Shown: positions 31,943-51,751 of the stretch, one piece after another
Position numbering within the stretch: position 1 is the first letter of the stretch
How the letters are laid out: each line of letters starts with the position of its first letter
Source: Balneolaceae bacterium
GTDB lineage: Bacteria > Bacteroidota > Rhodothermia > Balneolales > Balneolaceae
Assembly (NCBI GenBank): GCA_018401935.1
Contig: JAGYJQ010000002.1
Location: 186,001-250,000, forward strand
Direction of reading: 5' to 3'
Length of the DNA: 64,000 nucleotides
Translations under genes and position numbers: made by a program
The notes under the pieces: model-generated
Seen by the model: the letters and a program-made list of their open reading frames with translations, nothing else
Told to the model about the DNA's origin: nothing
Databases searched by the model: none

Positions 31943-34900
31943 ATGAAACAATTATTACCTATCTATCTGCTCATAGCAGTATGGTTTATTTCCTTCACGC
32001 AAGGAACAGCACAGGTAAGCGGTGTGTACACCGAACTTATTGGGCAATATCACACCGGACTCTTCGATGAAGGGGCGGCTGAAATTGTTGCTTTTGATGC
32101 CTCCAATCAACAACTTTTCTTTACCAATGCCAACGACAATTCCGTAGTTGTGCTTGATATTACAAATCCAGAACTACCTGTTCTGGTAACCACTATTGAT
32201 ATGTCCAGCTACGGTGGCGGGATTAACAGTGTTGCGGTATTTGAAGATATCGTAGCAATAGCTGTACAAGCGGATCCAAAAACTGACCCAGGAAAAGTGG
32301 TCTTTTTTAATACGGTAGATGCTTCTTATATCGCTGACGTTACAGTGGGTGCGCTGCCAGATATGGTCACCTTCACTCCGGATGGTAATTTTGCTATCAC
32401 CGCGAACGAGGGCGAACCTAATGATGACTATACCATAGACCCTGATGGAAGTGTGTCGTTTATTGATATTAGCTCTGGTGTTGCTTCGGCTACCGTTACT
32501 ACCACAGACTTTTCAGTACTCCCTGCTAATATTGAAAATTATAAGGCAGCTGGAATGCGAATTTTTGGCCCAGGTGCAACTCCAGCACAAGACATTGAAC
32601 CAGAATACGTCGCCGTATCACCAAACAGTGAAACAGCCTATGTTTCTCTTCAGGAAAATAATGCCATTGCTGTTTTCGATGTAGCTACAGCTAGCTTGAC
32701 TAAAATTTATCCACTTGGATTTAAGAATCATACCCTTCCAGGTAATGAATTAGATGCGAGTAATAAAGATGATATGATTAACATCACTAATTGGCCTGTT
32801 AAAGGATTGTACTTACCAGATGCTATTAAAGCAGTGGATATTGATGGTAAAACCTACCTTATTTCAGCCAATGAAGGCGATTCAAGAGATTATGATGGAT
32901 TCAGTGAAGAGGCTAGAATTAAAGACTTCCGACTAAATCCAGACATTTTTACCGATGCTGATCTTCAGGAAGATGAGCACTTAGGCCGCCTGAAAACCAC
33001 TACTACGATGGGAATGAACACCGACGAGCTTTACTTTCTCATGGAAGCAGACTCGGCGCAAGAAGTAAGTGGCGGTGATAACCGTGGTGCTGGTGAAGGT
33101 GAATTCATGTACGATGTCGACACACAAACCTTAACGTTTGAAATGACCTTTGAAGGTTTGGATTTCACAAGCTTCAACGGAGGCACATTTTTAACACTTG
33201 ACGATGCTACCGATGATGTAACGGCCATGCATTTTCATAACGCAGCTTCAGGCGTAAACGGCGGTGTAGTATTTGATATACTGGGTGATGGAAACACACA
33301 GGTTAGCACCGATACCCTAGGAATAACCACTATTTCTGGTTCTTGGAATGTAACCTCAGATGGCCTTATCTCTGAAATGCAGGCCGCCTTATTTGAACAA
33401 GAAATTTCATTGTATGTGAATGTACATACTACCGATCAACCGGCTGGGGCTATTCGCGGCCAATTGTTCGCAGACCCTATGTTTGATGAGCTTTACTCGT
33501 ATGGTGCACGATCCTTCAGCATTTGGGATGCAGCCACAGGTGCTCAAATTTATGATAGCGGTTCAGAGTTTGAAAGATTAACAGCAGAGTTAAATCCGTT
33601 GAATTTTAACTCCACCAATTCTGAGAATGATTCCTTTGACAACCGATCCGATGATAAAGGTCCAGAACCTGAGGGTCTAACTATACACACCCTCAATGGA
33701 AGAACCTATGCGTTCATTACTCTAGAGCGCGTTGGTGGCGTGATGATGTACGATATAACCGATCCCGCCAATGCAGAATTTGTTCACTATAGCAATGACC
33801 GAAACTTCGATGTAGCTTTTGACGAAGATGATAACAACACCCCAGAAATTTTAGAATCGGTTGTGTCTTCAGCTCCTGAAGATATACTCATTGTAGATCA
33901 AGGTGCTAACTTCACAGGCCGACCACTCATGATTTCTAGCAATGAAGTCACCGGATCTATCACGCTGAACACACTTATTCCACCAAGTAATGCGGGTAAT
34001 TTATTTATTTCTGAGTATGCTGAAGGAGGAAGTAACAATAAGTATTTGGAGATATACAATCCTACTGATGCTGCTATAAGCTTAGAAGGATACGCCATAG
34101 CCTCTGTAGGAAATGCTCCTTCGGTTCCAGGTGAAAATGAGTTTTTCGCGCCCCTTGATGCCACAAAAACGATTGAAGCCAAAGGTACTTATGTGTGGAT
34201 GAACCCAGGTAGTGTGGATTCATTAAAGGAAAAAGCCGATGAATTTGGCAATGCTTATTTCAATGGTAACGATGCCTATGCCTTAGTTTATGGCTCAGAA
34301 GAAAGCTTTGAAATATTGGATATGCTAGGTTCTTTCCTAGCCGATGATTATTGGGACGTAGCGGGTGTAAATGAAGGATTAAAAGATCACACGCTTGTCC
34401 GAAAATCTGATATTAATCGAGGTAATCCGGCTCCATTAGCTTCTTTCGGAACGGATGCTGATAACTCGGAGTGGGTTGTATTAGACAAAGACGATTACTC
34501 CAACTTAGGCACACATTCCTTTGACAACGTATTCAGCTTAGCCTTGCTTCATAACAACGATGGTGAATCACAGTTAGTAAATCTAGGTGGTGATTTAGAA
34601 GATTTTGGTGGTGTTGCTCGCTTTGCTACCAAACTTCAGCAAACACGTGCTATGCATGAATTGGCTGGTCGTGGGGTTCTATTCCTTTCTTCAGGGGATA
34701 ACTTCCTAGCAGGCCCTGAATACACCGTAGGTGTGAACGATGGCGTATTTTATGATGCCGTAGCCGTTGATTATTTGGGGTATGATGCTCTTGCATTTGG
34801 TAATCATGACTTTGATTTCGGGCCGGATTTAGCCGCCGAATTCGCAGATCAGGTAAGTAGCACCTTTATCACAGCCAATCTAGATTTTACCGAAAACAAT

Positions 34901-37900
34901 GCATTAAACGCATTAGTTGAATCGGGTAAAATCACCTCTTCTTCTGTATTTGATGTGAATGGACAGCAGGTCGGCGTAATTGGTGCAATAACACCAAACC
35001 TTCCATTTATCTCATCTCCAGGAAAGGTAAAAGTTCTTCAGAATGTAGCCGAGCTTGTTCAAGCAGAAATAGATGCCTTGGAAGCGGACGGTATTAATAA
35101 AATAATCCTGATATCCCACTTGCAGGGAGTTGACGAAGATTTTGCTATAGCGGCGCAACTTTCTGGCCTAGATGTCATGATTGCTGGTGGCGGGGACGAA
35201 CTTCTAAGTAATGAAGGAAATCTTCTCATACCGGGTGATGAGTCTAAATTGTATGGCGCTTATCCACAAATCGTGACCGATGCAGACAATAATGAAGTAC
35301 CCATTGTAACGACACTTGGTAATTACTCTTACCTAGGTAACCTTGTTGTTGACTTTAACGAGGCCGGAGAATTGATTTCTATTCATGATTCTTCCAATCC
35401 AATACGTATCGCTAGTCGCGCTTATGCCGATGGTGTTGCTGCTGATCCCTATTTGACTACAGAAGTAGTTGAACCCGTAAGTCAAGGATTAGCCAGCTTG
35501 GCAGAAAATATCATAGCTACTTCTGAAGTATTATTGGATGCCGAAGCGAATGATCTACGCTCTAAAGAAACCAATCAAGGTAACATGATTGCTGATGCCT
35601 TTTTATGGCAAGCTGGAGAGTTAGCAGAATCATTTGGTGCACCTGTCCCTGAGGTTGCTCTATCTAACGGTGGTGGAATACGTAACAGTGACATTCCTGC
35701 CGGAGATATTACGGAGTTAGATACCTTTGACATGCTACCTTTCTTGAATTTCGTTAGCGTTGTTGAGGAGTTAACTCCAGACCGTTTCAAGGTGATGATG
35801 GAAAATGCGGTGTCACGCATTGTGTTAGACGAAAATGGGGAACCACAACGTCAAGGTGGTGGTACCGGGCGCTTTGCTCAAATAGCAGGCTTTAGCATTG
35901 AATATGATGCTACCGCTACGCCTCTAGCTTTCGGTGAAAATGGCGAGGTTGCCACCCCCGGTGAGCGAATCATTACCCTACGTCTAGACGATGGCCGATA
36001 TATCGTGCGAAATGGAATGGTTGTTCCTGACGCCCCTGTAGTAAATCTAGCCACGGCTGATTTCACAGCGAAAGGTGGAGACCAATATCCAACAGCGGAC
36101 CTTCCTCTTACCCTACTAGGGGTGACCTATCAGCAAGCTCTATACAATTACATAACGGCGTCCAATGCCGAGGGTGGTTTAGAGGGACTAATCTCATCTG
36201 AGCAATATCCTGAAGGCGGTGAAGGACGTATCCGTGTACTAAATTTCAGCTCTATAGCTGATGCCCGTATAGCCGAGCCTGGTACTGAGCTAACCATTGA
36301 AGGTCAAGTTATTCGTCCAAGCGGTCGTATTAGCCGAATTGTAGATGCTACGGGTGGTATCTCGATTTATGCTCCATCGGGTGAATATCGTGATTCTCTA
36401 GAAAGTGGTTTCATACGTGAAGGAGATCTTGTTCGAATCACTGCTGAAGCAGCTTTCTTCCGAGGCTTAAATCAAATGTCCAATGTAGCTGCATTTGAAG
36501 TACTAGCCAGAGACCTCCCTCTTATTAAACCAGCAATGGTCACTTTAGAGGAGATTGCAAGCAATGGTGAACTTTATGAAAGCACCTTAATCGCCGTTAA
36601 AGGTGTGGAAGTAGTGACTGAAGATACCGTATTCGAGTCCAGTACAACCTACACCTTGGCAGGCGAAAGCGGAGTATCATTGCGTATTCAAAGCTCAAGT
36701 AGTGGTGAGTCAGCAGATGTAATCGGAATGCCTATTCCTGAAGGACCCTTCACCTTTGTGGGTACCTTAGGTCAGTTTGATTCGTCTGATCCTTACGACA
36801 GCGGTTACCAATTACTACCGGTACTTAAGAGTGATGTTCGAAGCAGTTACATCTTGTCTCTACTTCACAATAACGATGGTGAGTCCCAGTTAGTTAATCT
36901 AGGTGATGATTTATCTGACTTTGGTGGAGTGGCTCGCTTTAAAACTCTAGTTGACCAAGTACGTGATCGTGAGCATGAATTAGGCAGAGATGTATTGATG
37001 CTTTCCTCGGGTGATAACTTCCTTGCTGGGCCAGAATTCACCGTTGGTGTAAACGATACCACCTCATATGATGCTATTGCACTAAACGCAATTGGTTATG
37101 ATGCCATCGCATTAGGCAACCACGACTTCGACTTCGGTCCTGATTTCACTGCATTCTTTGCCGATCAGATTGAGAGTGTCTTTTTAAGTGCCAACTTAGA
37201 CTTCTCAGCTAACGAAAGCCTCAATGAACTCGTTAATGAAGGTAGAATCGCTAGCAGTGCTATTTTTGAAATGGAACTTGAGCGCATCGGTGTCATCGGT
37301 GCTATAACACCCAACCTAAATTCCATTTCAAGCCCGGGAGATGTGGTTGTAGACATTAACGTGAAAGATGCCATTCAAGCTGAAATTGATGCACTAGAAG
37401 CTGAAGGGATTGACAAAATCGTCCTAATATCCCATTTACAAGGAATTAAAGATGATTCCCTAATGGCCTCTCAGCTTTCCGGTATTGACGTTATGATAGC
37501 TGGTGGTGGAGATGAACTACTGGCTAATGAAGGTGATGCTCTTATCCCCGGTGATGAAGACGATATATATTCTGACTATCCTATCTTGGCTGAAAATGCG
37601 GATGGACAGCTAGTTCCTATCGTTACTACTCGTGGTAACTACAGTTACTTAGGTAAACTAAGTGTTGAATTTGATGCAGAAGGTATGGTTTCCCGTATTC
37701 TTGATGAATCAGGACCGATCCGAGTATCAGGAACGACCTCCCCTGATGGCGTTGTAGAAGATCCAATGCTAAAAGAATTGGTTGTAGAACCTGTTATCGA
37801 AGGATTATCCGGCCTTGCATCCAATGTTATCGCACAATCAGATGTAGAATTAGATGCTAGACGCTCTCAAATCCGTTCTAAAGAGACCAACCAAGGAAAT

Positions 37901-38872
37901 CTGATCGCAGATGCTTTCCTTTGGAGTGCAAACTCTTTAGCCGACGAATTTGGTGTAGAAAGAGCACATGTCGCCCTAGCTAATGGTGGCGGAATCCGAA
38001 ACAACAATGTACTAAGTGCTGGCCCAATCACCGAACTTAATACGTTTGAGATGCTGCCATTCTTGAATTTCATTTCTATTGTTGAAGGAGTAACTCCCGA
38101 ACGATTTAAAGAAATTATGGAAAACGCAGTATCGCGAATTAGTCTAGAAGGCGGTGAGACCGTTGCCACTGGTGGCGGAACAGGACGTTACGCCCAGTTT
38201 GCTGGATTTAGTATTGAATTCAACCCAAGTTTGGATGCACTGCAATACAGCTTAGAAGATGGTTCTATAAGCCAGGAAGGTAAGAGAGTTCTTTCCATCA
38301 CACTGGATGATGGTACTAAAATCATCGAACAAGGTGTTGTTGCCGAAGGTGCTCCTACCATTAACCTAGCAACGGCCGATTTTACGGCACGAGGCGGTGA
38401 TGAGTATCCATTAGGTGATTTGCCATTGACACTGCTAGGTGTTACCTATCAACAAGCGTTATATAGCTATTTGGTTACACCTACCGAATTCGGTGGTCTT
38501 GGTGGAAATGTTTCTGCAAGTCAATACCCAGCTGGTGGAGAAGGTAGAATTAGTCTTACCGATGCCCTACCCATTGCTAATGAGAACGAAGGTATAGCCG
38601 GTATACCAAATACCTATGCATTAGAACAGAACTATCCGAATCCATTTAACCCAACCACTCAGATAAACTTCAGTCTACCTGAAGCAGCACAAGTGCAGTT
38701 AAATGTGTACAACATGTTAGGCCAAAAAGTTGCTACCGTAATGCAGCAAAGGCTAGATGCTGGATACCATACCGTTCAATTCGATGCCGCAAATTTAGCC
38801 AGCGGTATGTACATCTACCGATTACAGGCTGGATCATACATAAGCACCAAAAAGATGATGCTTATTAAATAA
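31943..38872 (+). CDS. Giant secreted protein with two 5'-nucleotidase modules and T9SS sorting domain
   Basis: 2309 residues, domains read by pattern: signal peptide (1-24); choice-of-anchor I beta-propeller-like region (25-~345 and ~510-675) interrupted by a CHRD-type insertion (~360-510, ending HTTDQPAGAIRGQLF); lamin-tail domain (~682-850); first metallophosphatase/5'-nucleotidase module (~864-1430); an OB-fold linker (~1434-1620); a second, homologous module (~1635-2205); and a T9SS sorting domain (NYPNPFNPTTQINFSL ... STKKMMLIK). Each nucleotidase has GNHDFDFGP and the C-terminal NGGGIRN motif, but the usual DxH and GHxH motifs read NNDGES and AGGGDELL. It probably removes phosphate from extracellular nucleotides; catalytic details are uncertain. 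A strong terminator follows. Confidence 0.88.
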   Translation: MKQLLPIYLLIAVWFISFTQGTAQVSGVYTELIGQYHTGLFDEGAAEIVAFDASNQQLFFTNANDNSVVVLDITNPELPVLVTTIDMSSYGGGINSVAVFEDIVAIAVQADPKTDPGKVVFFNTVDASYIADVTVGALPDMVTFTPDGNFAITANEGEPNDDYTIDPDGSVSFIDISSGVASATVTTTDFSVLPANIENYKAAGMRIFGPGATPAQDIEPEYVAVSPNSETAYVSLQENNAIAVFDVATASLTKIYPLGFKNHTLPGNELDASNKDDMINITNWPVKGLYLPDAIKAVDIDGKTYLISANEGDSRDYDGFSEEARIKDFRLNPDIFTDADLQEDEHLGRLKTTTTMGMNTDELYFLMEADSAQEVSGGDNRGAGEGEFMYDVDTQTLTFEMTFEGLDFTSFNGGTFLTLDDATDDVTAMHFHNAASGVNGGVVFDILGDGNTQVSTDTLGITTISGSWNVTSDGLISEMQAALFEQEISLYVNVHTTDQPAGAIRGQLFADPMFDELYSYGARSFSIWDAATGAQIYDSGSEFERLTAELNPLNFNSTNSENDSFDNRSDDKGPEPEGLTIHTLNGRTYAFITLERVGGVMMYDITDPANAEFVHYSNDRNFDVAFDEDDNNTPEILESVVSSAPEDILIVDQGANFTGRPLMISSNEVTGSITLNTLIPPSNAGNLFISEYAEGGSNNKYLEIYNPTDAAISLEGYAIASVGNAPSVPGENEFFAPLDATKTIEAKGTYVWMNPGSVDSLKEKADEFGNAYFNGNDAYALVYGSEESFEILDMLGSFLADDYWDVAGVNEGLKDHTLVRKSDINRGNPAPLASFGTDADNSEWVVLDKDDYSNLGTHSFDNVFSLALLHNNDGESQLVNLGGDLEDFGGVARFATKLQQTRAMHELAGRGVLFLSSGDNFLAGPEYTVGVNDGVFYDAVAVDYLGYDALAFGNHDFDFGPDLAAEFADQVSSTFITANLDFTENNALNALVESGKITSSSVFDVNGQQVGVIGAITPNLPFISSPGKVKVLQNVAELVQAEIDALEADGINKIILISHLQGVDEDFAIAAQLSGLDVMIAGGGDELLSNEGNLLIPGDESKLYGAYPQIVTDADNNEVPIVTTLGNYSYLGNLVVDFNEAGELISIHDSSNPIRIASRAYADGVAADPYLTTEVVEPVSQGLASLAENIIATSEVLLDAEANDLRSKETNQGNMIADAFLWQAGELAESFGAPVPEVALSNGGGIRNSDIPAGDITELDTFDMLPFLNFVSVVEELTPDRFKVMMENAVSRIVLDENGEPQRQGGGTGRFAQIAGFSIEYDATATPLAFGENGEVATPGERIITLRLDDGRYIVRNGMVVPDAPVVNLATADFTAKGGDQYPTADLPLTLLGVTYQQALYNYITASNAEGGLEGLISSEQYPEGGEGRIRVLNFSSIADARIAEPGTELTIEGQVIRPSGRISRIVDATGGISIYAPSGEYRDSLESGFIREGDLVRITAEAAFFRGLNQMSNVAAFEVLARDLPLIKPAMVTLEEIASNGELYESTLIAVKGVEVVTEDTVFESSTTYTLAGESGVSLRIQSSSSGESADVIGMPIPEGPFTFVGTLGQFDSSDPYDSGYQLLPVLKSDVRSSYILSLLHNNDGESQLVNLGDDLSDFGGVARFKTLVDQVRDREHELGRDVLMLSSGDNFLAGPEFTVGVNDTTSYDAIALNAIGYDAIALGNHDFDFGPDFTAFFADQIESVFLSANLDFSANESLNELVNEGRIASSAIFEMELERIGVIGAITPNLNSISSPGDVVVDINVKDAIQAEIDALEAEGIDKIVLISHLQGIKDDSLMASQLSGIDVMIAGGGDELLANEGDALIPGDEDDIYSDYPILAENADGQLVPIVTTRGNYSYLGKLSVEFDAEGMVSRILDESGPIRVSGTTSPDGVVEDPMLKELVVEPVIEGLSGLASNVIAQSDVELDARRSQIRSKETNQGNLIADAFLWSANSLADEFGVERAHVALANGGGIRNNNVLSAGPITELNTFEMLPFLNFISIVEGVTPERFKEIMENAVSRISLEGGETVATGGGTGRYAQFAGFSIEFNPSLDALQYSLEDGSISQEGKRVLSITLDDGTKIIEQGVVAEGAPTINLATADFTARGGDEYPLGDLPLTLLGVTYQQALYSYLVTPTEFGGLGGNVSASQYPAGGEGRISLTDALPIANENEGIAGIPNTYALEQNYPNPFNPTTQINFSLPEAAQVQLNVYNMLGQKVATVMQQRLDAGYHTVQFDAANLASGMYIYRLQAGSYISTKKMMLIK

Positions 38873-39016: not shown

Positions 39017-39057
39017 AAAAAAACTAATCACTAATAAAATCAGATCAGCTGATTAGC
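39016..39057 (-). terminator. Probable intrinsic terminator of queD-folE2
   Basis: On the minus strand CTAATCA pairs with TGATTAG and is followed by eight T. The stem begins at the folE2 stop codon; the loop is long (19 nt) and contains a second palindrome. Confidence 0.55.
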
Positions 39058-39952
39058 GTAGTCCGTTTGGCAGACCTTTACATATTCTACTAACCGCGTC
39101 ATGGCTATGTAAGCTTTCCAGGTGAGCACATCGAACCACGAAATCTCTGATAGAATTGTAACTATCTAACTCTTGGTATAATAGTCTAGCAGCATCCTCT
39201 ACAAACTTCTGATAGGCTCCATTCAATTCAGCAAAAGCTTGCTCATCTTCTCGTTTAACCATTACCTGTGTCTCGGTCTGAAGCGCTTCTCGACAAATCT
39301 CAACCAGATCTTCTACGTAAAAAGTGTCCTTCAAAGCCACAGTAATTTCAGCAACACTGCGTTGAGAGTGTGGAATTGTCGCAATATTACGGACTTCACG
39401 GGCATGTTCAGCTAACTCGTAAGAACACGGACAAGCACTGCTGTACACAAAGTTCAGATGCATGAATTTATTGAAACGGCCATAGGAATCTAAATGACCT
39501 TCAAGGGATACCTCATAATACTGATACCCTTCCATTCCACTACGAAGACTTGGTTTAAGTAAGGGAAAGGAAAAATTCAGCCTTAAAAATGCCTCTTGTG
39601 CTCCTAAGTCTTCCTTATACGCTTGTAAAACGGATTCAAGTGTATCTAAAGTAAAAACCTCGTCTTTGAATCGATAAAATGTTCGCATAATTCGACTCAT
39701 ATTAATGCCTTTCTTGTTGGCATCTAAACTAACATACCCGTCAACAGATACTTCAAGTAGATGGGTCTTACCATCTCTTTTCTTAATATGAAGGGGGAGC
39801 TTGAAATTAGAAATACCCACTTGTTGAATAGGTACATTAGCTCCTTCGATTAAGGAAGCAGGTCCATTCTGTAAATCGGGTAAAGATTCTTTGTATTCCG
39901 GGCTGATGGTGAATGTGGGGTCGTAAAATCGTTTTACACTTTGTGATAACAT
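39053..39952 (-). CDS. folE2: GTP cyclohydrolase IB (FolE2)
   Basis: A 299-residue FolE2/COG1469 enzyme making 7,8-dihydroneopterin triphosphate from GTP, independent of zinc specificity. Features: the N-terminal [15 protein letters not shown], the substrate region [22 protein letters not shown] with the metal-binding Cys, [15 protein letters not shown], and [16 protein letters not shown] near the end. It starts 41 bp after queD; the pair can feed 7-deazaguanine (queuosine) or folate synthesis, and no folB/folK is nearby. Confidence 0.95.
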
Positions 39953-39993: not shown

Positions 39994-40425
39994 TTATAGC
40001 GTCCTATATGGACAGTATTCAGCGCTGTTTCGTTCGGTTTCAAACAATTTTACCGAGTATAACACACTTCCCTGACTGGCTTCTGCTTCGACTGGTTTTT
40101 TTAATTGGTCGTAAAATGCGTGTACTAAATTTTCAGAAGTTGGAATAATATCGGAGAGAAATGGTACATCCATATTCAAATTGCGATGATCACATGGTTC
40201 TAAAATGTACTGCTCAATAATTTTTTTTAAGCGCCCTAAATCTATTACATAACCAGAATCTGGATCAGGAATTCCTGCTAAAGTAACCTCTAAAACATAG
40301 TTATGTCCATGCCAGTTGGCATAATTACACTTGCCATAAGTCTCTTGATTCCACTGGTCAGATTTATTTGAGTTTACCAATCTATGTGCTGCATTGAAGT
40401 GAGTTTGTCGAGTTACAAATACCAC
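39994..40425 (-). CDS. queD: 6-carboxytetrahydropterin synthase (QueD/PTPS family)
   Basis: A 143-residue T-fold enzyme. Zinc-binding His come from FNAAHRL and WHGHNYVLEV; the catalytic Cys-containing segment is TYGKCNYANWHGH, and DHRNLN and the terminal KLFETERNSAEY are family hallmarks. It converts dihydroneopterin triphosphate to the queuosine precursor 6-carboxytetrahydropterin; the eukaryote-like PTPS reaction is an alternative. It precedes folE2, which makes its substrate. Confidence 0.93.
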   Translation of the reverse strand: MVFVTRQTHFNAAHRLVNSNKSDQWNQETYGKCNYANWHGHNYVLEVTLAGIPDPDSGYVIDLGRLKKIIEQYILEPCDHRNLNMDVPFLSDIIPTSENLVHAFYDQLKKPVEAEASQGSVLYSVKLFETERNSAEYCPYRTL

Positions 40426-40643: not shown

Positions 40644-41483
40644 TTACTTTATCAAGGTCATCTTTTTAGTAATTACCGAAGAATTGCTAACCAAGCGGTA
40701 GATATACATACCACTTGAAAGTCCTGATGCATCAAAGTTAAAAGTAGTAGAACCCGCTGGCATCATCTGCTGACGTGCTAGTACGGCAACTTCTCTACCC
40801 AACATATCATACACCACTAGGCTTACTTGCTGTGCTTCTGGAAGTGTGAAGCTTATTTGAGTGCTAGGGTTAAATGGGTTTGGATAGTTTTGATGTAGTT
40901 GAACTACCGTAGGCAGATCTTCTGAGATGATAGACTCATCTTCATTTGATACAGATACAGTGGATACATATCCATGTGCTACTAGAGCAGTCCATGACTG
41001 AATCCAAAGGTAGTTGTCAGCAAACGCGCCCACATAATCAGTTGACATCATGAACTCATTATCTACTGCTTTTACAGCGGAGGCATCTAATGCAGGGGAA
41101 CCCGTTTTTGGTCGAGGATCCAATCCGTTAGAACCAGCTGTTCGGCTAATACCTTCTAACATTGGATCTGCAACACGGTTAGCATTGGCGGCATCCGATA
41201 GATAATCACGGGTGTGAGCTTGGTCGTCACCACCGGCAAACTCCGCAATGGTATTACCCGCGCCAAAACCGAACCACAAGTTGTTCTGGAGAATCAAATC
41301 TCCTTCCGCCAATCGGGTCTTCGCATCAAAACCTTCTCCTACTTTCCGAAGCTTCAATGGTAATCGCAAGACCAGCATGGTCACTGAAGATCGAGTTGTA
41401 GTACTCACCACCGGTGTTGCTTCAGCGGAATAACAATAACTGCGAACCATCACCTGCGTTTGGCGTAGCATCCTGACCCGCAC
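40644..41483 (-). CDS. C-terminal piece of the T9SS repeat protein
   Basis: The intact part runs from about 41330 to 40644: the end of repeat unit 4 (EGDLILQNNLWFGFGAGNTIAEFAGGDDQ, SRTAGSNGLDPRPK), a short linker (SNEDESIISEDLP), and the T9SS sorting domain from QNYPNPFNPSTQ to the terminal KKMTLIK. The first ~45 residues of the open frame (before GFDAKTR) are out-of-frame translation of the damaged zone and are not real. It is not an independent gene. Confidence 0.75.
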   Translation of the reverse strand: MRVRMLRQTQVMVRSYCYSAEATPVVSTTTRSSVTMLVLRLPLKLRKVGEGFDAKTRLAEGDLILQNNLWFGFGAGNTIAEFAGGDDQAHTRDYLSDAANANRVADPMLEGISRTAGSNGLDPRPKTGSPALDASAVKAVDNEFMMSTDYVGAFADNYLWIQSWTALVAHGYVSTVSVSNEDESIISEDLPTVVQLHQNYPNPFNPSTQISFTLPEAQQVSLVVYDMLGREVAVLARQQMMPAGSTTFNFDASGLSSGMYIYRLVSNSSVITKKMTLIK

Positions 41484-44400
41484 CTAGGTAGGTGAGCGTT
41501 GGCAATCACTGGCTGCGCAAATGGGTGGTGTTTTCATTACCCGTTGCACCATCCTGCTCAGCTGCACGGCCGTACCCATCATTGGCATTACCAGGGCTTT
41601 GGATAGCAAACCAGAACTGGTGAGAGCCTTGGAACCCTTCGTCCCAGTCAAAGGCATCATCGGTGTTAAAAGCAGATACCAAATACTTGGTATTTACCGT
41701 ACCACCAAAAATTCAAAACCATCATCGTTGAGGCAAAGGACTCAACGTATTCTACAACCGTTCAGGACCAACGCCACCCATGGTAAGCCCTTGGATTTCG
41801 TTACCGGCTACGTCCCCTACGTTAATACCGGTATGACGGATCGATACGTATCGGATAACTCCAGAGTTATCGTCTACATCGTCCCCACCATAGCGGGCAT
41901 ACGATTCAGGATTCGCGATTTCGTTGACGCCTTCGATGAGCTTAGTGCCGTCTTCGGTCGCGTTGTTGGTGGGCGCATCGCCCAATACCACAAGACCACC
42001 CCAAAGACCGCGATCAAGTTCGGTTAACGAACCGTTTAGATCATCCGCTTCTGATGTAAAGATAATCGGCTCTTCGGCTGTACCCTCGGCAAAGATTTGA
42101 GCACCTTCCGTGACTACTAAACCAGATGCATTATTACCGTCACCAAGAGCACCTTTAACAACCGTACCCTCTTGGATGAATAATTTAGAGCCTGGCTTTA
42201 CAAAGACCATACCGTCTAATACGTAGGTATTATTTTTAGTCCAAGTGAATGATTGGCCAGCTGGTAAGTCCGCATCTTCGATGAAGATAGTGGTTGACTC
42301 TACTGGTTCGTTGTTCACATATCCATGTGCTTCTAAGGCAGTCCAACCCGCAATCCAGTTATCAGTAGCATTAAATGCACCGGCGTAGGATGTACGACGG
42401 ATAAATGGATTCTCTACTTCTTGAACAGCTATAGGATTTAATGCAGGCGAACCCTCTGATGGTCGAGGATCCAATCCGTTAGAACCAGCTGTTCGGCTAA
42501 TGCCACGTAGCATTGGATCTGCAACACGGTTAGCATTGGTGGCATCCGATAGATAATCACGGGTGTGAGCTTGGTCGTCACCACCGGCAAACTCCGCAAT
42601 GGTATTACCCGCGCCAAAACCGAACCACAAGTTGTTCTGGAGAATCAAATCTCCTTCCGCCAATCGGGTCTTCGCATCAAAACCTTCTACTTTACCAGAA
42701 GCTTCAATGGTTATACCAAGACCAGCATGGTCACTGAAGATCGAGTTGTAGTACTCACCACCGGTGTTGTCGCGGAATAACAATAACTGCGAACCATCAC
42801 CTGCGTTTGGCGTAGCATCCTGACCCGCACCTAGGTAGGTAGCGTTGGCAATCACTGGCTGCGCAAATGGAGTGGTGTTTTCATTACCCGTTGCACCATC
42901 CTGCTCAGCTGCACGGCCGTACCCATCATTGGCATTACCAGGGCTTTGGATAGCAAACCAGAACTGGTGAGAGCCTTGGAACCCTTCGTCCCAGTCAAAG
43001 GCATCATCGGTGTTAAAAGCAGATACCAAATACTTGGTATTTACCGTACCACCAAAGAATTCAAAACCATCATCGTTAGAGGCAAAGGACTCAACGTATT
43101 CTACAACCGTTCCGGAACCAACGCCACCCATGGTTAGACCTTGGATTTCGTTACCGGCTACGTCCCCTACGTTAATACCGGTATGACGGATCGATACGTA
43201 TCGGATAACTCCAGAGTTATCGTCTACATCGTCCCCACCATAGCGGGCATACGATTCAGGATTCGCGATTTCGTTGACGCCTTCGATGAGTTTAGTACCA
43301 TCTTCGGTCGCGTTGTTGGTGGGCGCATCGCCCAATACCACAAGACCACCCCAAAGACCACGATCAAGCTCGGTTAACGAACCGTTTAGATCATCGATTT
43401 CTGAAGTAAAGATAATAGGCTCTTCTGCCGTACCTTCGGCAAAGATTTGCGCGCCTTCGGTAACAACTAAACCAGTAGCATCACCACCATCCCCAAGGGC
43501 GCCTTTAATCACGGTACCCTCTTCTATAAATAACCTAGATCCTGGTTTTACGAAAACCATTTCATTTAAGACATACGTATTGTTATTGGTCATATTAAAG
43601 TCTTCACCAGCCACAAAATCAGCATCTGTTAGGTAAACCGTAGTACCAATTTTGTCTACTACTTCGTCAGATACATAACCATGAGCAGCTAGAGCCGTCC
43701 AACCAGCGATCCAGTTTTCGGTAGCATTGAATGCACCAGAATAAAATGTTCTATCAAAGAAATCATCTTCAACTGTTTTTACAGCAGATGCATCAAGAGC
43801 TGGTGAGCTAGAAGAAGGACGTGGATCTAAACCGTTAGAACCAGCTGTTCGGCTAATGCCACGGAGCAATGGATCTGCAACACGGTTGGCATTGGCGGCA
43901 TCCGATAAGTAGTCACGGGTGTGAGCTTGGTCGTCACCACCGGCAAACTCCGCAATGGTATTACCCGCACCAAATCCGTACCACAAGTTGTTCTGGAGAA
44001 TCAAATCTCCTTCCGCCAATCGGGTCTTCGCATCAAAACCTTCTACTTTCCCAGAAGCTTCAATGGTGATCGCAAGACCAGCTTGGTCACTGAAGATCGA
44101 GTTGTAGTACTCACCACCGGTGTTGTCGCGGAATAACAATAACTGCGAACCATCACCTGCGTTAGGCGTAGCATCCTGACCCGCACCTAGGTAGGTAGCG
44201 TTGGCAATCACTGGATGTGCAAATGGAGTGGTGTTCTCATTACCCGTTGCACCATCCTGCTCAGCTGCACGACCGTACCCATCATTGGCATTTCCAGGGC
44301 TTTGGATAGCAAACCAGTATTGATGTTTACCTTGGAATCCTTCGTCCCAGTCAAAGGCATCATCGGTGTTAAAAGCAGATACCAAATACTTGGTGTTTAC

Positions 44401-46326
44401 CGTACCACCAAAGAACTCGAAACCATCATCATTAGAAGCAAAAGACTCAACATACTTAACAGTAGTTCCGGAACCAACGCCACCCATGGTAAGACCTTGG
44501 ATTTCGTTACCGGCCACATCACCCACGTTAATACCGGTATGACGGATCGATACGTATCGGATAACCCCAGAGTTATCGTCCACATCGTCCCCACCATAGC
44601 GGGCATACGATTCAGGATTCGCGATTTCGTTGACGCCTTCGATGAGTTTGGTGCCATCTTCGGTCGCGTTGTTGGTGGGCGCATCACCCAATACCACAAG
44701 ACCACCCCAAAGACCGCGATCAAGCTCGGTTAACGAACCGTTTAGATCATCCGCTTCTGAAGTAAAGATAATCGGCTCTTCGGCTGTACCTTCGGCAAAG
44801 ATCTGCGCGCCTACAGTTATTACTAAACCAGTAGCATCACCACCATCACCAAGGGCGCCTTTAATCACAGTACCTTCTTCGATGAATAATCGTGATCCTG
44901 GTTTTACGAAGACCATCTCGGAAAGTATATAGGTGTTTTCTTTAGACCAGTTATAGTCTTCACCAGCCAATAAATCGGTATCTGTCACATAGATAGTAGT
45001 TCCGATTTTGTCTACTACTTCATCAGATATATAACCATGAGCAGCTAAAGCCGTCCAACCAGCGATCCAGTTTTCATTAGCATTAAAGGCTCCAGTGTAT
45101 GGAGTTCTGTCAAAGAAGTCATCGGCTAAAATTTTCACTTTAGAAGCATCTAGAGCAGGGGAACCGCCCTGAGGTCGAGGATCCAATCCGTTAGAACCAG
45201 CAGTTCTACTAATACCTTTTAATAATGGATCCGTTACACGGTTGGCATTGGCGGCATCAAATATTCAATTAAGGTGTGAAGGCTTGGTCGTCACCACCAG
45301 CAAACTCCGCAATGGTATTACCCGCACCCAAATCCATTACCACAAGTTGTTCTGGAGAATCAAATCTCCTTCCGCCGTCGGTCTTCGCATCAAAACCTTC
45401 TCACTTTCCCGACTTCAATGGTGATCATAGAATAAAGCAGTCACTGAAGATCGAGTTATGGCCTCACCACCAGTGTTGTCGCGGAATAACAATAACGCGA
45501 ACCATCACCTGCGTTAGGCGTAGCATCTGACCCGCACCTAGGTAGGTAGCGTTGGCAATCACTGGATGTTGCAAATGGGTGGTGTTCTCATTGCGTTACC
45601 ATCCTGCTCAGCTGCACGACCATGCCCATCATTGGCATTTCCAGGGCTTTGGATGCCAAACCAATGCCGATATTTACAGTAAGAATGTAGTCAGTCAAGG
45701 CATCATCGGTGTTAAGCAGATGCAAATATGGTGTTTACAATGCACCACAAAGACTCGACATCATCATTAGGCAAGGGCTCAACATACTTAACGATGGTTC
45801 CAGGTCAACACCACCCATGGTAAGACCTTAGTTTCGTTACCAGCCCATCACCCACGTTAATACCGGTATGACGGATCGATACATCGGATAACCCCAGAGT
45901 TATCATCCACATCGTCCCCACCATAGCGGGCATACGGTTAAGTTCGCGATTTCGTTGACGCCTTCGATGAGTTTGGTGCCGTCATGGTCGCGTTGATGGT
46001 GACGCATCACCCAATACCACAAGACCACCCCAAAGACCGCGATCAAGCTCAGTTGGTTAACGAACCGTTTAGATCATCTACTTCTGAGTAAAGATAATCG
46101 GCTCTTCGGCTGTACCTTCGGCAAAGATCTGCGCGCCTACAGTGACAACCAAGCCAGTGGCATCATTACCATCACCAAGGGCGCCTTTAATTACAGTACC
46201 TTCTTGGATGAATAATTTAGAACCTGGTTTTACAAAGACCATATCATCTAATACATAGATGTTATTTTTGGTCCAGTTATAATCTTGCCCTGCGACAAGA
46301 TCAGCATTGGTGATTCTCACTGTGGT
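40945..46326. repeat. Four long tandem repeats, period 1356 bp
   Basis: The same CCGTTAGAACCAGC anchor occurs at 41125, 42476, 43832 and 45188, spacings of 1351, 1356 and 1356 bp. Approximate units in reading direction: 46326-45004, 45003-43648, 43647-42295 and 42294-40945. Large blocks are near-identical between units at DNA level, while about 200 bp around each junction is diverged, which suggests recent duplication or gene conversion. Confidence 0.92.
41752..45186 (-). CDS. Central piece of the T9SS repeat protein (units 2, 3 and part of 4)
   Basis: An uninterrupted 1144-residue frame holding units 2 and 3 completely and the first 60% of unit 4. Unit starts are at IGTTIYVTDTDLLAGEDYNW, IGTTVYLTDADFVAGEDFNM and TTIFIEDADLPAGQSFTW. 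Its first Met is inside the unit-1/unit-2 junction (MDPRPQGGS) and is not a real start; the end at 41752 is caused by indels. The intactness of this long frame argues against an old pseudogene. Confidence 0.78.
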   Translation of the reverse strand: MDPRPQGGSPALDASKVKILADDFFDRTPYTGAFNANENWIAGWTALAAHGYISDEVVDKIGTTIYVTDTDLLAGEDYNWSKENTYILSEMVFVKPGSRLFIEEGTVIKGALGDGGDATGLVITVGAQIFAEGTAEEPIIFTSEADDLNGSLTELDRGLWGGLVVLGDAPTNNATEDGTKLIEGVNEIANPESYARYGGDDVDDNSGVIRYVSIRHTGINVGDVAGNEIQGLTMGGVGSGTTVKYVESFASNDDGFEFFGGTVNTKYLVSAFNTDDAFDWDEGFQGKHQYWFAIQSPGNANDGYGRAAEQDGATGNENTTPFAHPVIANATYLGAGQDATPNAGDGSQLLLFRDNTGGEYYNSIFSDQAGLAITIEASGKVEGFDAKTRLAEGDLILQNNLWYGFGAGNTIAEFAGGDDQAHTRDYLSDAANANRVADPLLRGISRTAGSNGLDPRPSSSSPALDASAVKTVEDDFFDRTFYSGAFNATENWIAGWTALAAHGYVSDEVVDKIGTTVYLTDADFVAGEDFNMTNNNTYVLNEMVFVKPGSRLFIEEGTVIKGALGDGGDATGLVVTEGAQIFAEGTAEEPIIFTSEIDDLNGSLTELDRGLWGGLVVLGDAPTNNATEDGTKLIEGVNEIANPESYARYGGDDVDDNSGVIRYVSIRHTGINVGDVAGNEIQGLTMGGVGSGTVVEYVESFASNDDGFEFFGGTVNTKYLVSAFNTDDAFDWDEGFQGSHQFWFAIQSPGNANDGYGRAAEQDGATGNENTTPFAQPVIANATYLGAGQDATPNAGDGSQLLLFRDNTGGEYYNSIFSDHAGLGITIEASGKVEGFDAKTRLAEGDLILQNNLWFGFGAGNTIAEFAGGDDQAHTRDYLSDATNANRVADPMLRGISRTAGSNGLDPRPSEGSPALNPIAVQEVENPFIRRTSYAGAFNATDNWIAGWTALEAHGYVNNEPVESTTIFIEDADLPAGQSFTWTKNNTYVLDGMVFVKPGSKLFIQEGTVVKGALGDGNNASGLVVTEGAQIFAEGTAEEPIIFTSEADDLNGSLTELDRGLWGGLVVLGDAPTNNATEDGTKLIEGVNEIANPESYARYGGDDVDDNSGVIRYVSIRHTGINVGDVAGNEIQGLTMGGVGPERL

Positions 46327-46389
46327 TTGTGCCCAGGCACTCACCGCAATGAAAAAAGACATTACTAATAGTAAGGATCGTTTATACAT
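46078..46389 (-). CDS. N-terminal piece of the T9SS repeat protein
   Basis: A genuine translation start with a Sec signal peptide (MYKRSLLLVMSFFIAVSAWAQ) and the first 80 residues of repeat unit 1, ending where EEPIIFTSE should continue; a one-base deletion at about 46087 creates the stop. It starts 33 bp downstream of the TonB-dependent receptor, so both are probably one transcript. Confidence 0.75.
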   Translation of the reverse strand: MYKRSLLLVMSFFIAVSAWAQTTVRITNADLVAGQDYNWTKNNIYVLDDMVFVKPGSKLFIQEGTVIKGALGDGNDATGLVVTVGAQIFAEGTAEEPIIFTQK

Positions 46390-46422: not shown

Positions 46423-49296
46423 TTAAAAGGAGTAACTCAAGCTTAGGCTAATACTTCTACCCGTCTTGTAGGATTGATAGATGTATTCTTGACCTTCAAG
46501 CTCATGGGATAATTTCACAGCGGGATCAAACAAGTTTTTAGCTGATAATTTGGCCTTAAAACCATTGCTAAATGACTTATTAACAATAATATCTAAGGTG
46601 CTGTAACCTCTCTCAAACACATCAGGAATTGCACCTAATGCTACTGAATATAACCGGTCACCAAAACGGTTGAACGATGCGTTTGCTGAAAAACCGTTGT
46701 CTTCGTTGAAGTATTCTAGATCAAAGTTTAAAAGGAATGGAGATTGACCAGCTAAGCTACGGGTATCCGGTGCATCTGGGTCATTAATACGGATATTAAA
46801 GAGTTCAGCATCAGGTATGGATACCTCGGATTGTACAAGTGAAAAATTATTTGAAAACTGAAAATTACTAAGCGCTTCAGAGATGAAATTTAGACTTTTC
46901 CGAATTTCAAATTCCATACCATAGACTTGTGCTTCGGCAACATTTTGAACACTTTGAGCTCTGTTTACATCCAACCGAACGATTCGTTCAATAGGATTTT
47001 CGATGTCTTTGTAAAAAACTGAAACCGCGATAATCTCACCAGCATTAGGGAACCACTCCCAACGTAGGTCCATATTGGTTATTAGAGTACGCTCTAGTTC
47101 AGCATTACCGGTAAAAATAAAATCACCCACAAAATCAAAGGTGGTATAAGGTGCTAATTCTCGGAAGGTAGGCCTCGCAATGGTGTTGGTGTACGACCCA
47201 CGTATATTCATGTTATCCGTTAAATTATAGACGGCACTAACTGCAGGTAATATATCGGTATTATCCAATATCCCTGGTGCTGTTGAGGTATCCCCAGAGG
47301 TTGTATTCATCTTCGTCATCTCTGGTCTAAAGCCAGTAATAAGCTTAAGTTGTGAAGTTATAGGTAGCTCAACCATTAAATAAAATGCCGTTATCTCTTT
47401 TTCTGCTGTGTATTGATTCTTTTGGTTGGTATCGTCGTCTATAAGGTTTCCAAAAGTATAACGCGTTCGAGTACCAATTTGAGAAGAATCAACGATACCC
47501 GTGTAGGAGAAAAAACCATTTATATCATTGGCAAAATCACTGAAAGAGCGTGCGCCTATCTCATATTCAAATCTATTTTCTGCAAAATCACGATTAATAG
47601 ATTGTTGATAATAACCTGTTTTAAATTTCCCACCCGAGTTTCCAAGAAACTCGAATGGTACAGAATAGTCTAGGATTAGATTATCGCTATCCTCTTCTAG
47701 TTCCCTGAAAAAACGGGCTGGGCGTTGAAATAATCCAGAGGATAGTGATAAGAAAGTTTGACCATCTTCATCTTCGTCAATTAAATAGGTAAGGAATCGT
47801 AAATCTGGTTCTGACTGAGTGTTAGTGGCAACCGAATACTTCCAATCGATGGTAGAATTGAGTAGCCCTTTAAAATAGTGTTTACCTGAAAACTGTAGGG
47901 CGGTCAACGAGCGCTCAATATATTGAATAACAGAAGATTGATAGCCACGATCAGGTGCTTCTTCGTTCCATACACCATTGATGTTACGGGCCCCATGCTG
48001 TCCACTACGAGTAGTAATCAAATTTGTGGACACCTTATGCCCTTCACCAATTTTATAGGATACACCAGCCAGCAAACCCATATCAACCGAAATAGTTGAT
48101 TTTTGATCAGTTAAGTCAAAAAGATTGGTTAGTCCACCCGATTTATCTAATTCACCAATTAATTGCCACCTACCCAATTTACCGTCACTGTAATTAGAGG
48201 CTGACTGGTTATACGTTAAACTCATTGTATATCCGAGAGGATTACCAAGTAACTCTAATTGATCCCCGTAAGCTATGCTACCACCAAAATTGTACGGTAA
48301 AGTAGTGATTTTAGGAGCCATTTCGTTGTTGAAATGACTAGAAAAATCGTCCAATAAATAGGCATCCTCCGAAATAAACCGCGCGGAACTACTAGAAGGA
48401 AGGTCAAATTCAGGATCCGATATATAATCTAAAATAGGTTGTGGTACGGCACGAGTACCATCATCCTTAGCCAAATAGTCGGTAGATCCAGCTGTTGAAA
48501 GATACCCTTCTTTACCACTAGCCAAAGCATTGTATCCCCCAGAAAAAGATACACTGAAAGTGCGTTGTTCTGGGAAATCCTTGGTGTATACATCAACGAG
48601 TCCCCCGGAAAAATTTCCCGGCTTATCCGGTGTAAAAGTCTTAATAGTGATGATGTTTTCTAGAAGACTGGATGGGAAAATGTCGAACTGAAAAGATTTC
48701 TTGTCGGGATCAGCAGAAGGTAATTCAACTCCATTTAAATGAGAACTTGAATAACGATCACCTAATCCTCGGACATACACATATTTACCACCAACTACCG
48801 AAGCACCAACCACCTTTTTCATGGCACCCGCTGCATCACCTGCACCTGAACGAGCTATGCTTTCAGCTGAAATGGCATCACTGAATGAGATTGATTTCTG
48901 TCGCTGTTTTAACAATCCAGCCTCGTTATCTAGCACAGCTTCCGCTGTTACGACTATTTCGTCTAGAAATTCGGTTTCTGGTTGTAAGATAATGTCAAGC
49001 TGAACCGTCTCACCCGCAACAATTTCAATACCAGTAATCTTTTGAGGAGTAAATGATATGTAACTTACTACTAAGGTGTAGGTTCCAGGCTCTATTGATT
49101 TTATGGTGTAATTACCATCAATATCTGATGCTGTTCCTTTGACGGTACCTTCCAGTACCACATTTACCCCAATGAGGGTTTCACCTGATTCGGAATCTAC
49201 TATAGTACCGGTTAGGGATCCATTTGTACTTTGTGCAAAAACTGATGTACTTAAGAGAAGTGCTAGTGAGAAGAATGAAATAAGTAGTTTATTCAC
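46423..49296 (-). CDS. TonB-dependent receptor with carboxypeptidase-regulatory-like N-terminus
   Basis: 957 residues. It has a signal peptide (to ~21), a CarboxypepD_reg-like beta-sandwich (NGSLTGTIVDSESGETLIGVNVVLEG, to ~105), a plug domain (DEIVVTAEAV ... YVRGLGDRYSSSHLNGVELPS), and a 22-strand barrel ending in the aromatic SLSLSYSF. It imports an unknown ligand across the outer membrane using ExbB/ExbD energy (an exb cluster is at 53-55 kb). The start is GTG at 49296, inside a perfect hairpin. The T9SS repeat protein follows by 33 bp and may be its surface partner. No SusD-like gene is present. Confidence 0.93.
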   Translation of the reverse strand: MNKLLISFFSLALLLSTSVFAQSTNGSLTGTIVDSESGETLIGVNVVLEGTVKGTASDIDGNYTIKSIEPGTYTLVVSYISFTPQKITGIEIVAGETVQLDIILQPETEFLDEIVVTAEAVLDNEAGLLKQRQKSISFSDAISAESIARSGAGDAAGAMKKVVGASVVGGKYVYVRGLGDRYSSSHLNGVELPSADPDKKSFQFDIFPSSLLENIITIKTFTPDKPGNFSGGLVDVYTKDFPEQRTFSVSFSGGYNALASGKEGYLSTAGSTDYLAKDDGTRAVPQPILDYISDPEFDLPSSSSARFISEDAYLLDDFSSHFNNEMAPKITTLPYNFGGSIAYGDQLELLGNPLGYTMSLTYNQSASNYSDGKLGRWQLIGELDKSGGLTNLFDLTDQKSTISVDMGLLAGVSYKIGEGHKVSTNLITTRSGQHGARNINGVWNEEAPDRGYQSSVIQYIERSLTALQFSGKHYFKGLLNSTIDWKYSVATNTQSEPDLRFLTYLIDEDEDGQTFLSLSSGLFQRPARFFRELEEDSDNLILDYSVPFEFLGNSGGKFKTGYYQQSINRDFAENRFEYEIGARSFSDFANDINGFFSYTGIVDSSQIGTRTRYTFGNLIDDDTNQKNQYTAEKEITAFYLMVELPITSQLKLITGFRPEMTKMNTTSGDTSTAPGILDNTDILPAVSAVYNLTDNMNIRGSYTNTIARPTFRELAPYTTFDFVGDFIFTGNAELERTLITNMDLRWEWFPNAGEIIAVSVFYKDIENPIERIVRLDVNRAQSVQNVAEAQVYGMEFEIRKSLNFISEALSNFQFSNNFSLVQSEVSIPDAELFNIRINDPDAPDTRSLAGQSPFLLNFDLEYFNEDNGFSANASFNRFGDRLYSVALGAIPDVFERGYSTLDIIVNKSFSNGFKAKLSAKNLFDPAVKLSHELEGQEYIYQSYKTGRSISLSLSYSF

Positions 49297-49408: not shown

Positions 49409-51751
49409 CTAGGAAAATAAATCTTTTTTGGAATTAGCTTGATCCTCATTCTCAGAAGAAATGATGCTAGGTCCATCTTCTGCCTCAGTCTCACTACTCT
49501 CTTTAGGTTTATCTGTTACTTTATTGTTTTCTTTTGGTTGAGCGTCCGTTCTTATGATTTCACTAGTTAGTTCAACACCGGATGAACTGACGGTTTTAGA
49601 TTCTTCCGAGCCCTTATTCGTTATCTTTCCGTGGCCAGACTTAATATCATCCGTTGTATCCTCCGTTGTTTTCTCAACCATATCCTCAACCACATCATCC
49701 GTTGAATCCTCCGTTGTTTTCTCAACCATATCCTCAACCACATCATCCGTTGAATCCTCAACCACATCATCAGAAATAACTTCGTCTACTATTTTCGCCT
49801 CTGCAAAAAGGCCATCTGCATGTTTTCCTTTTGGCCTATCACCAAGTAAATCACGTAATTCTTGATGATTCATAACTTCCTTTTCTAACAAGGTTTTTGC
49901 AAGTAGAACCAATTGATCACGATGTTCGGTTAGTAATGCGAGAGTTCGATCATAATTCATTCTAATTATGGACTGAACGGCATCATCAATACGATTCGAA
50001 GTATCCGCGGAGTATTTACGGTTAAATCCATAGCTATTTTCGGGGTTGCTTGAATCTCTTAAGGAGATGTATCCAAGCTCTTTGCTCATCCCATATTCGG
50101 CCACCATTGCATAGGCCATATTGGTAATTCTTTCGAGATCATTTTGGGCTCCAGTCGATATTTTTCCGAAAATAATTTCTTCAGCTATTCTACCACCCAA
50201 CAAAGCACATATCTTTTCATTTAGTTCTTCAGTGGTCATTAAAAAGCGATCTTCAAGAGGTGTTTGTAAGGTATAACCTAAGGCTGCCAACCCTCTTGGC
50301 ACGATACTTACTTTCAGGACCGGATCGGTGTACTCTAAAAACCACCCAACCACAGCATGCCCTGCTTCATGGTAGGCAACAATTTCACGTTCTTCAGGGC
50401 TAATAAGCTTGTTTTTACGCTCTAGACCAGCTATCACTTTTTCAATGGAATCCTGAAAATCTACCATTTCAACGGCTTTTTTCCCACGACGTGCAGCAAG
50501 TAAGGCCGCTTCATTACACAAATTAGCAAGCTCAGCACCAGCAAAACCAGGTGTTTGCGAGGCCAATACTCGCAAATCTATAGTACTGGAGAGTTTTACT
50601 TTTTTAACATGAACTTTCAGTACTTCGACTCGCCCGTTTAAGTCAGGTTTGTCGATTAATATTTGACGATCAAAACGCCCTGGTCTCAGGAGTGCGGAAT
50701 CTAAGATATCTGGACGGTTTGTAGCAGCCATAAGTATAACCCCTTTATCGGAGTTAAAACCATCCATTTCACTAAGCAATTGATTCAGGGTATTTTCACG
50801 CTCATCATTTGATCCCATGGCCATGCCTTTACCACGTGAACGCCCTATGGAATCAATTTCGTCAATGAATACAATACAAGGAGCTTTTTCTTTGGCTTGT
50901 TTAAATAAATCACGCACCCTAGCAGCTCCAACTCCAACAAACATTTCAACAAAATCAGAACCACTTAAACTAAAGAATGGGACACTGGCTTCACCCGCTG
51001 TTGCTTTCGCGAGCAATGTTTTACCTGTGCCAGGAGGGCCTACTAGTAATACACCTTTTGGCAAGGTTCCGCCTAACTTAGTAAATTTTTGAGGGGTTTT
51101 TAGAAATTCCACCACTTCTTCTACTTCAGCCTTAGCTTCGTCCAGTCCCGCAACGTCTTTAAAGGTAACTTTCGTTTCGGTTTGCTGATCGTATAGAGAT
51201 GCTTTGTTTTTACCGATATTTAGTACTTGCTGTCCTGGGTTCATTCGACGGAAGATGAATACCCAGAACCCAACAGCCAGTCCAATCATAACCAACCACA
51301 TAAATACGCCACTAAACCATTCTTCTTCTATTCGAACTTCGTATTCTACCCCAAATTCATCGAGTATTGGTCGAATGTCATCGTTTGGTAAAATAGTCGT
51401 GACAAATGTTCTGTACTCCTCAGCCATGGCAGTTGGCAGATTTAGGGGAGAATCCTGCTGTTCTGGTGGACTGATAATACCGTCACTTAATGCGGATTCA
51501 TTATATTTTCCGTATACATTGACTTGATTCTTTATGATAATCTCATCGACGTATCCACTCTTAACTTGATCCAAGAATTCACTGTATTTAATTCCATTGC
51601 TTGGTTCTGGATTTAAAAACATGAATTGAATTACAATCAGAAATAGGATGATTACGAGAAATCCCCAAGTTGGAAATTTCGGATTTGCACCATCTTTTTT
51701 GTTAAGAGGTGACTTTAGAGGATTCTTTGATGGGGGCTTCTTATCGGCCAT
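49409..51751 (-). CDS. ftsH: ATP-dependent zinc metalloprotease FtsH
   Basis: 780 residues. Two membrane helices (about 28-47 and 145-165) flank the periplasmic domain. The AAA+ module has Walker A GPPGTGKT (~235-242), Walker [12 protein letters not shown] and the SRH ([22 protein letters not shown]); the protease has the HEAGH zinc motif (~459-463). It degrades misassembled membrane proteins and short-lived regulators. The unusual part is a ~130-residue acidic C-terminal tail with an exact repeat ([16 protein letters not shown]), encoded by 48-bp repeats, longer than common FtsH tails. Confidence 0.97.
49646..49765. repeat. 48-bp repeat (2.5 copies) inside the ftsH tail
   Basis: Units 49646-49693 and 49694-49741 are almost identical; a half unit of 24 bp follows at 49742-49765. 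All lengths are multiples of three, so the reading frame is kept. They code the acidic 16-residue tail repeats. Confidence 0.9.

Follow-up and report, generated by a model that had tools for sequence, protein, structure and literature searches.

Frame breaks in a four-unit repeat gene of a Balneolaceae bacterium most likely stem from uncorrected patches in the genome assembly

The window analysed here, a stretch of 64,000 nucleotides from the draft genome of a Balneolaceae bacterium, carries on its minus strand (46389-40644) a gene composed of a signal peptide, four units of ~452 amino acids (~1356 nt each) and a T9SS sorting tail (Table 1). The units are in register with spacings of 1350, 1356 and 1326-1356 nt, and the second and third lie inside a single stop-free run of 1170 codons (45264-41755), in agreement with a preliminary description of the locus in which both were perfectly open. 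The sorting tail scores well above the profile cut-offs (50.8 bits against 23 for TIGR04183 and 47.2 against 27 for PF18962) and, together with the N-terminal signal peptide, recognized by inspection only, marks the product as predicted T9SS type A cargo. The N-terminus is nearly identical in two homologues from the same genus (L026 and L041). Another secreted protein with a T9SS tail is encoded elsewhere in the window (31943-38872, plus strand); its 2309 amino acids include choice-of-anchor I, CHRD and lamin-tail matches and two 5'-nucleotidase C-terminal matches, and its gene contains an internal ~65% repeat (34547-35821 and 36863-38140).

Table 1. Features of the repeat gene and its neighbours, in window coordinates.
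Feature	Position	Strand	Basis
Start codon and signal peptide (MYKRSLLLVMSFFIAVSAWAQ)	46327..46389	-	ORF 46389-46078; signal peptide by inspection
Repeat unit 1	44986..46330 (approximate bounds)	-	alignment
Patch 1, in unit 1: dense small indels, read as uncorrected sequence	45258..46087	-	alignment vs unit 2
Repeat unit 2, fully open	43630..44985	-	reading frame, alignment
Repeat unit 3, fully open; predicted right-handed beta-helix (pLDDT 90.8)	42274..43629	-	
Repeat unit 4	40930..42273 (approximate bounds)	-	alignment
Patch 2, in unit 4: 10 small indels vs unit 3	~41338..41788	-	alignment vs unit 3
T9SS type A C-terminal sorting domain (Por_Secre_tail, PF18962 / TIGR04183)	40659..40886	-	profile matches
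TonB-dependent receptor with carboxypeptidase-regulatory-like N-terminus, conserved neighbour	46423..49296	-	profile matches
6-pyruvoyl tetrahydropterin synthase/QueD family, conserved downstream neighbour	39994..40425	-	
GTP cyclohydrolase FolE2, conserved downstream neighbour	39053..39952	-	

The gene order thiL-ftsH-TonB receptor-repeat gene-QueD/PTPS-FolE2 is largely kept in Balneolaceae, and a TonB-dependent receptor adjoins the repeat-gene homologue in all nine neighbourhoods tested, which span Balneolota, Rhodothermota, Bacteroidota, Verrucomicrobiota and Lysobacterales. Comparison with homologous loci, as proposed in the preliminary description, revealed syntenic genes that are open with one unit (G014, 571 aa), with two (L027, 1011 aa, and the same-genus L026, at least 960 aa, whose contig breaks off within the sorting tail) and with four (G012, 1873 aa). 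Four units are natural in this family, and the intact four-unit relative lends weight to the earlier prediction of a protein of ~1910 residues. Short tandem repeats occur at two other places in the window, namely 48/36-nt repeats in the 3' end of ftsH, corresponding to the C-terminal tail (49646-49772), and a 12-nt repeat in seven copies (58773-58860) near the 5' end of a 1271-aa ORF that has no match in Pfam (59009-55194, minus strand).

The repeat unit has no sequence match in Pfam, NCBIfam or the PDB, and literature searches found no paper on the repeat-gene family. Its structural model is strand-rich and takes the form of a right-handed parallel beta-helix. Nearly all Foldseek matches are beta-helix proteins with modest TM-scores, the best of them (E-values of 5e-4 to 8e-4) including the pectate lyase Pel9A (1ru4) and PL6 lyases. 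The gene belongs to an ordinary and widespread family that has no Pfam or NCBIfam name; its product is predicted to be a right-handed beta-helix protein exported by T9SS, with a TonB-dependent receptor encoded next to it.

Within a single protein, each unit usually has its nearest relatives among the other units, as in the window (44985-42274) and in L026, L027, L030, L032, L045 and L052. Unit identity is 91% within L027 against ~71% to the window, 97% within L030 and 81% within L045. Because units are usually more alike within a protein than across species, the sequences point to recurrent intragenic duplication or homogenisation (concerted evolution). The locus is hard to assemble: draft contigs of three genomes (G003, G004 and G020) end within a repeat unit, and in the same-genus L041/G007 (RFPJ01000097) a joint at ~3465 in unit 1 skips ~280 nt relative to the units of the window and breaks the frame, and is probably a repeat misjoin.

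The frame is lost at two places only, one in unit 1 and one in unit 4, as first described, and alignment has refined their bounds. Patch 1 differs from unit 2 by 32 deletions and 12 insertions (44 indel events) in ~800 aligned bases. The indels are short, mostly 1-2 nt, and the patch is deletion-biased, whereas unit 3 has no indel against unit 2 in the 850 bases that match it. The reported net loss of 30 bases from unit 1 relative to unit 2 corresponds to a spacing of 1326 instead of 1356 in the 5' part. The statement that substitutions are scarce relative to indels holds only in part: beside its 44 indels, patch 1 mismatches unit 2 at 49 positions, but the natural differences between units 2 and 3 number 50 in the corresponding stretch. 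Patch 2 is milder, with six deletions and four insertions against unit 3 in ~445 bases (between 41767 and 41340). Here the net gain of one base noted earlier is confirmed by a shift of register from 1350 to 1351, as are the extra base at 41494 and the missing base near 41525 (deleted at ~41524-41525); the earlier count of about seven indels was too low, ~10 being found.

The two patches also differ in error density (5.5 against 2.2 indels per 100 bp), and given this they may not be of single origin. On either side of patch 2 the sequence is identical to unit 3, over 152 bp at 41940-41789 and 148 bp at 41337-41190, and each edge lies inward of the closest variant specific to unit 4 by roughly the length of a short read. 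Patch 1 follows directly on 57 bp that are identical to unit 2 (46143-46087), the last distinguishing variant being only 57 bp away. A uniform read reach of 150 bp as the cause of the edges fits patch 2 but not patch 1, and no single rule for the edges is therefore claimed.

One explanation of the breaks is that it was impossible to tell which of the four units a read came from, and that misplacement of reads alone produced the errors. Both patches do sit where the units are nearly identical, the edges of patch 2 are ~150 bp away from unit-specific variants, and the gene is the only long near-identical repeat in the ~390 kb searched. Against this stands the gene for aspartate-semialdehyde dehydrogenase (asd), which is broken on contig C70 at ~68.09-69.14 kb (L072:8091-9136, minus strand). 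Compared with the intact 349-aa gene of the same-genus G002, it has 13 deletions and 9 insertions (22 indel events), whereas asd of G004 has no indels against the same reference, and the gene is open in other genomes of the genus (351-384 aa). The N-terminus of asd has one match in the assembly and the gene has no internal repeat, yet its error signature is the same. Natural loss of asd is very unlikely because the synthesis of lysine, threonine, methionine and the cell wall depends on it, and the stretch on C70 is a second uncorrected stretch of the assembly, at an unrelated and hardly dispensable locus. Since a non-repeated gene is damaged likewise, misplacement of reads among the units does not suffice as an explanation, and it is unlikely to account for the breaks by itself. 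Repeat ambiguity may be the reason for gaps at the repeat-gene locus.

The draft assembly comprises 2.60 Mb in 71 contigs, with a completeness of 94%, and was sampled as stretches amounting to ~747 kb, window included. Of the sampled genes with an orthologue in the same-genus G006, ~80 of 83 are unbroken; four genes that seemed broken in comparison with G006 were start-codon or antisense artefacts. Among the open-frame gap zones inspected one by one, all of them in the first sample, only asd stood out. Raw sequence does not explain every open-frame gap, as the others hold 16S rRNA, tRNA, tmRNA or seemingly ordinary intergenic DNA. In the second sample, stretches of contigs C17 (L102) and C19 (L104) have 14% and 18% of their length without long open frames, unusually high values among the sampled contigs, which could reflect further uncorrected patches or ordinary non-coding DNA. 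With asd broken, most other genes intact and the repeat gene the only long near-identical repeat in the ~390 kb searched, assembly errors thus appear to be rare and local, and to extend beyond repeats.

A different explanation is natural pseudogenisation, in which this lineage no longer has a working copy of the gene and decay is under way in units 1 and 4. The frames are truly broken in the deposited sequence, and the substitutions in patch 1 look unconstrained, as decay would give too: at sites where units 2-4 agree, the changes in the patch number 29/27/33 over codon positions 1/2/3. Decay is not expected to confine indels to two sharp patches, and there are none in units 2 and 3, in the signal peptide or in the sorting tail. 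The 3.4 kb between the patches is free of indels, for which the probability at the patch-1 indel rate is ~1e-81. Furthermore, a stop in unit 1 would free the downstream units from selection, yet these have no stop and pN/pS between units 2 and 3 is 0.10. Differences between unit 2 and the shared state of units 3 and 4 (units 3=4) fall mainly at third positions (19/8/62). Because the patch changes hit codon positions evenly, against the third-position bias between units 2-4, they have not been through selection, whereas the gene outside the patches is under purifying selection. Neither relaxed selection nor gene-wide lesions were found and asd, hardly dispensable, is equally damaged, leaving pseudogenisation very improbable. 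Phase variation is known from surface proteins of other bacteria, and the outer units alone are affected here, but true variation of these units in the population by dense small indels, whether through phase variation, programmed frameshifting or hypermutation that would switch off or diversify the ends of a surface protein, is harder still to credit, given that 44 scattered indels of 1-4 nt are neither a slippage tract nor an invertible segment, that homologues are open and lack such a pattern, and that asd is equally damaged.

We conclude with high confidence, from the assembled sequence rather than from raw reads, that both breaks are genome-assembly errors in the form of unpolished patches, and that the organism most likely makes an intact protein of ~1,900 residues. 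The preliminary description had ascribed the breaks to reads of a long repeat being misplaced or badly polished. The artefact itself is supported by the open units 2 and 3, purifying selection, intact homologues and above all asd; misplacement is the part that does not suffice. Dense indels of 1-4 nt, sharp bounds and an otherwise clean contig, all seen here, are the signature of such patches. Unpolished long-read sequence that stayed behind at gaps in the assembly is the most likely source and fits both the repeat gene and asd. Single-pass or unpolished, probably long-read, sequence would have been placed in units 1 and 4, the remainder of the contig being accurate; the long-read origin and the behaviour of the assembler are what we infer. 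The real gene would encode a signal peptide, the four beta-helix units present in the assembled sequence and, at the C-terminus, a T9SS sorting tail, and T9SS would export the protein to the cell surface. There it might serve the adjoining TonB-dependent receptor, probably by capturing or cutting a polymeric substrate, a role that we put forward tentatively.

The repeat gene should accordingly not be taken for a pseudogene, nor its breaks for biology, and where a gene is scored as missing in this draft genome, e.g., asd, its sequence may merely be garbled. Because its units are repeatedly duplicated or kept alike within one gene, the repeat gene is poorly suited to assembly from short reads and offers a poor basis for statements on how many units there are.

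The predicted protein and the damage to its gene can both be set beside known systems. A signal peptide and a type A sorting tail are common to T9SS-exported repeat proteins of Bacteroidota/Balneolota (Por_Secre_tail, TIGR04183) and to the protein described here; unlike in those proteins, the unit here matches no sequence family in Pfam, NCBIfam or the PDB. With Pel9A (1ru4) and the PL6 lyases the unit model has in common the right-handed parallel beta-helix. It differs from them in its low TM-scores (0.2-0.4) and an identity of 11-16%, and has no match to a polysaccharide lyase family (PL6/PL9) in Pfam or NCBIfam. As for the damage, unpolished or gap-filled stretches occur in hybrid or long-read metagenome assemblies. 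Compared with unpolished long-read assemblies, the indels here are found in a few patches and not genome-wide. One study describes indel errors in nanopore assemblies that need short-read polishing (PMC9262707). The likeness to hybrid and long-read metagenome assemblies lies in short, deletion-biased indels that break reading frames in otherwise good contigs, as they do in this window.
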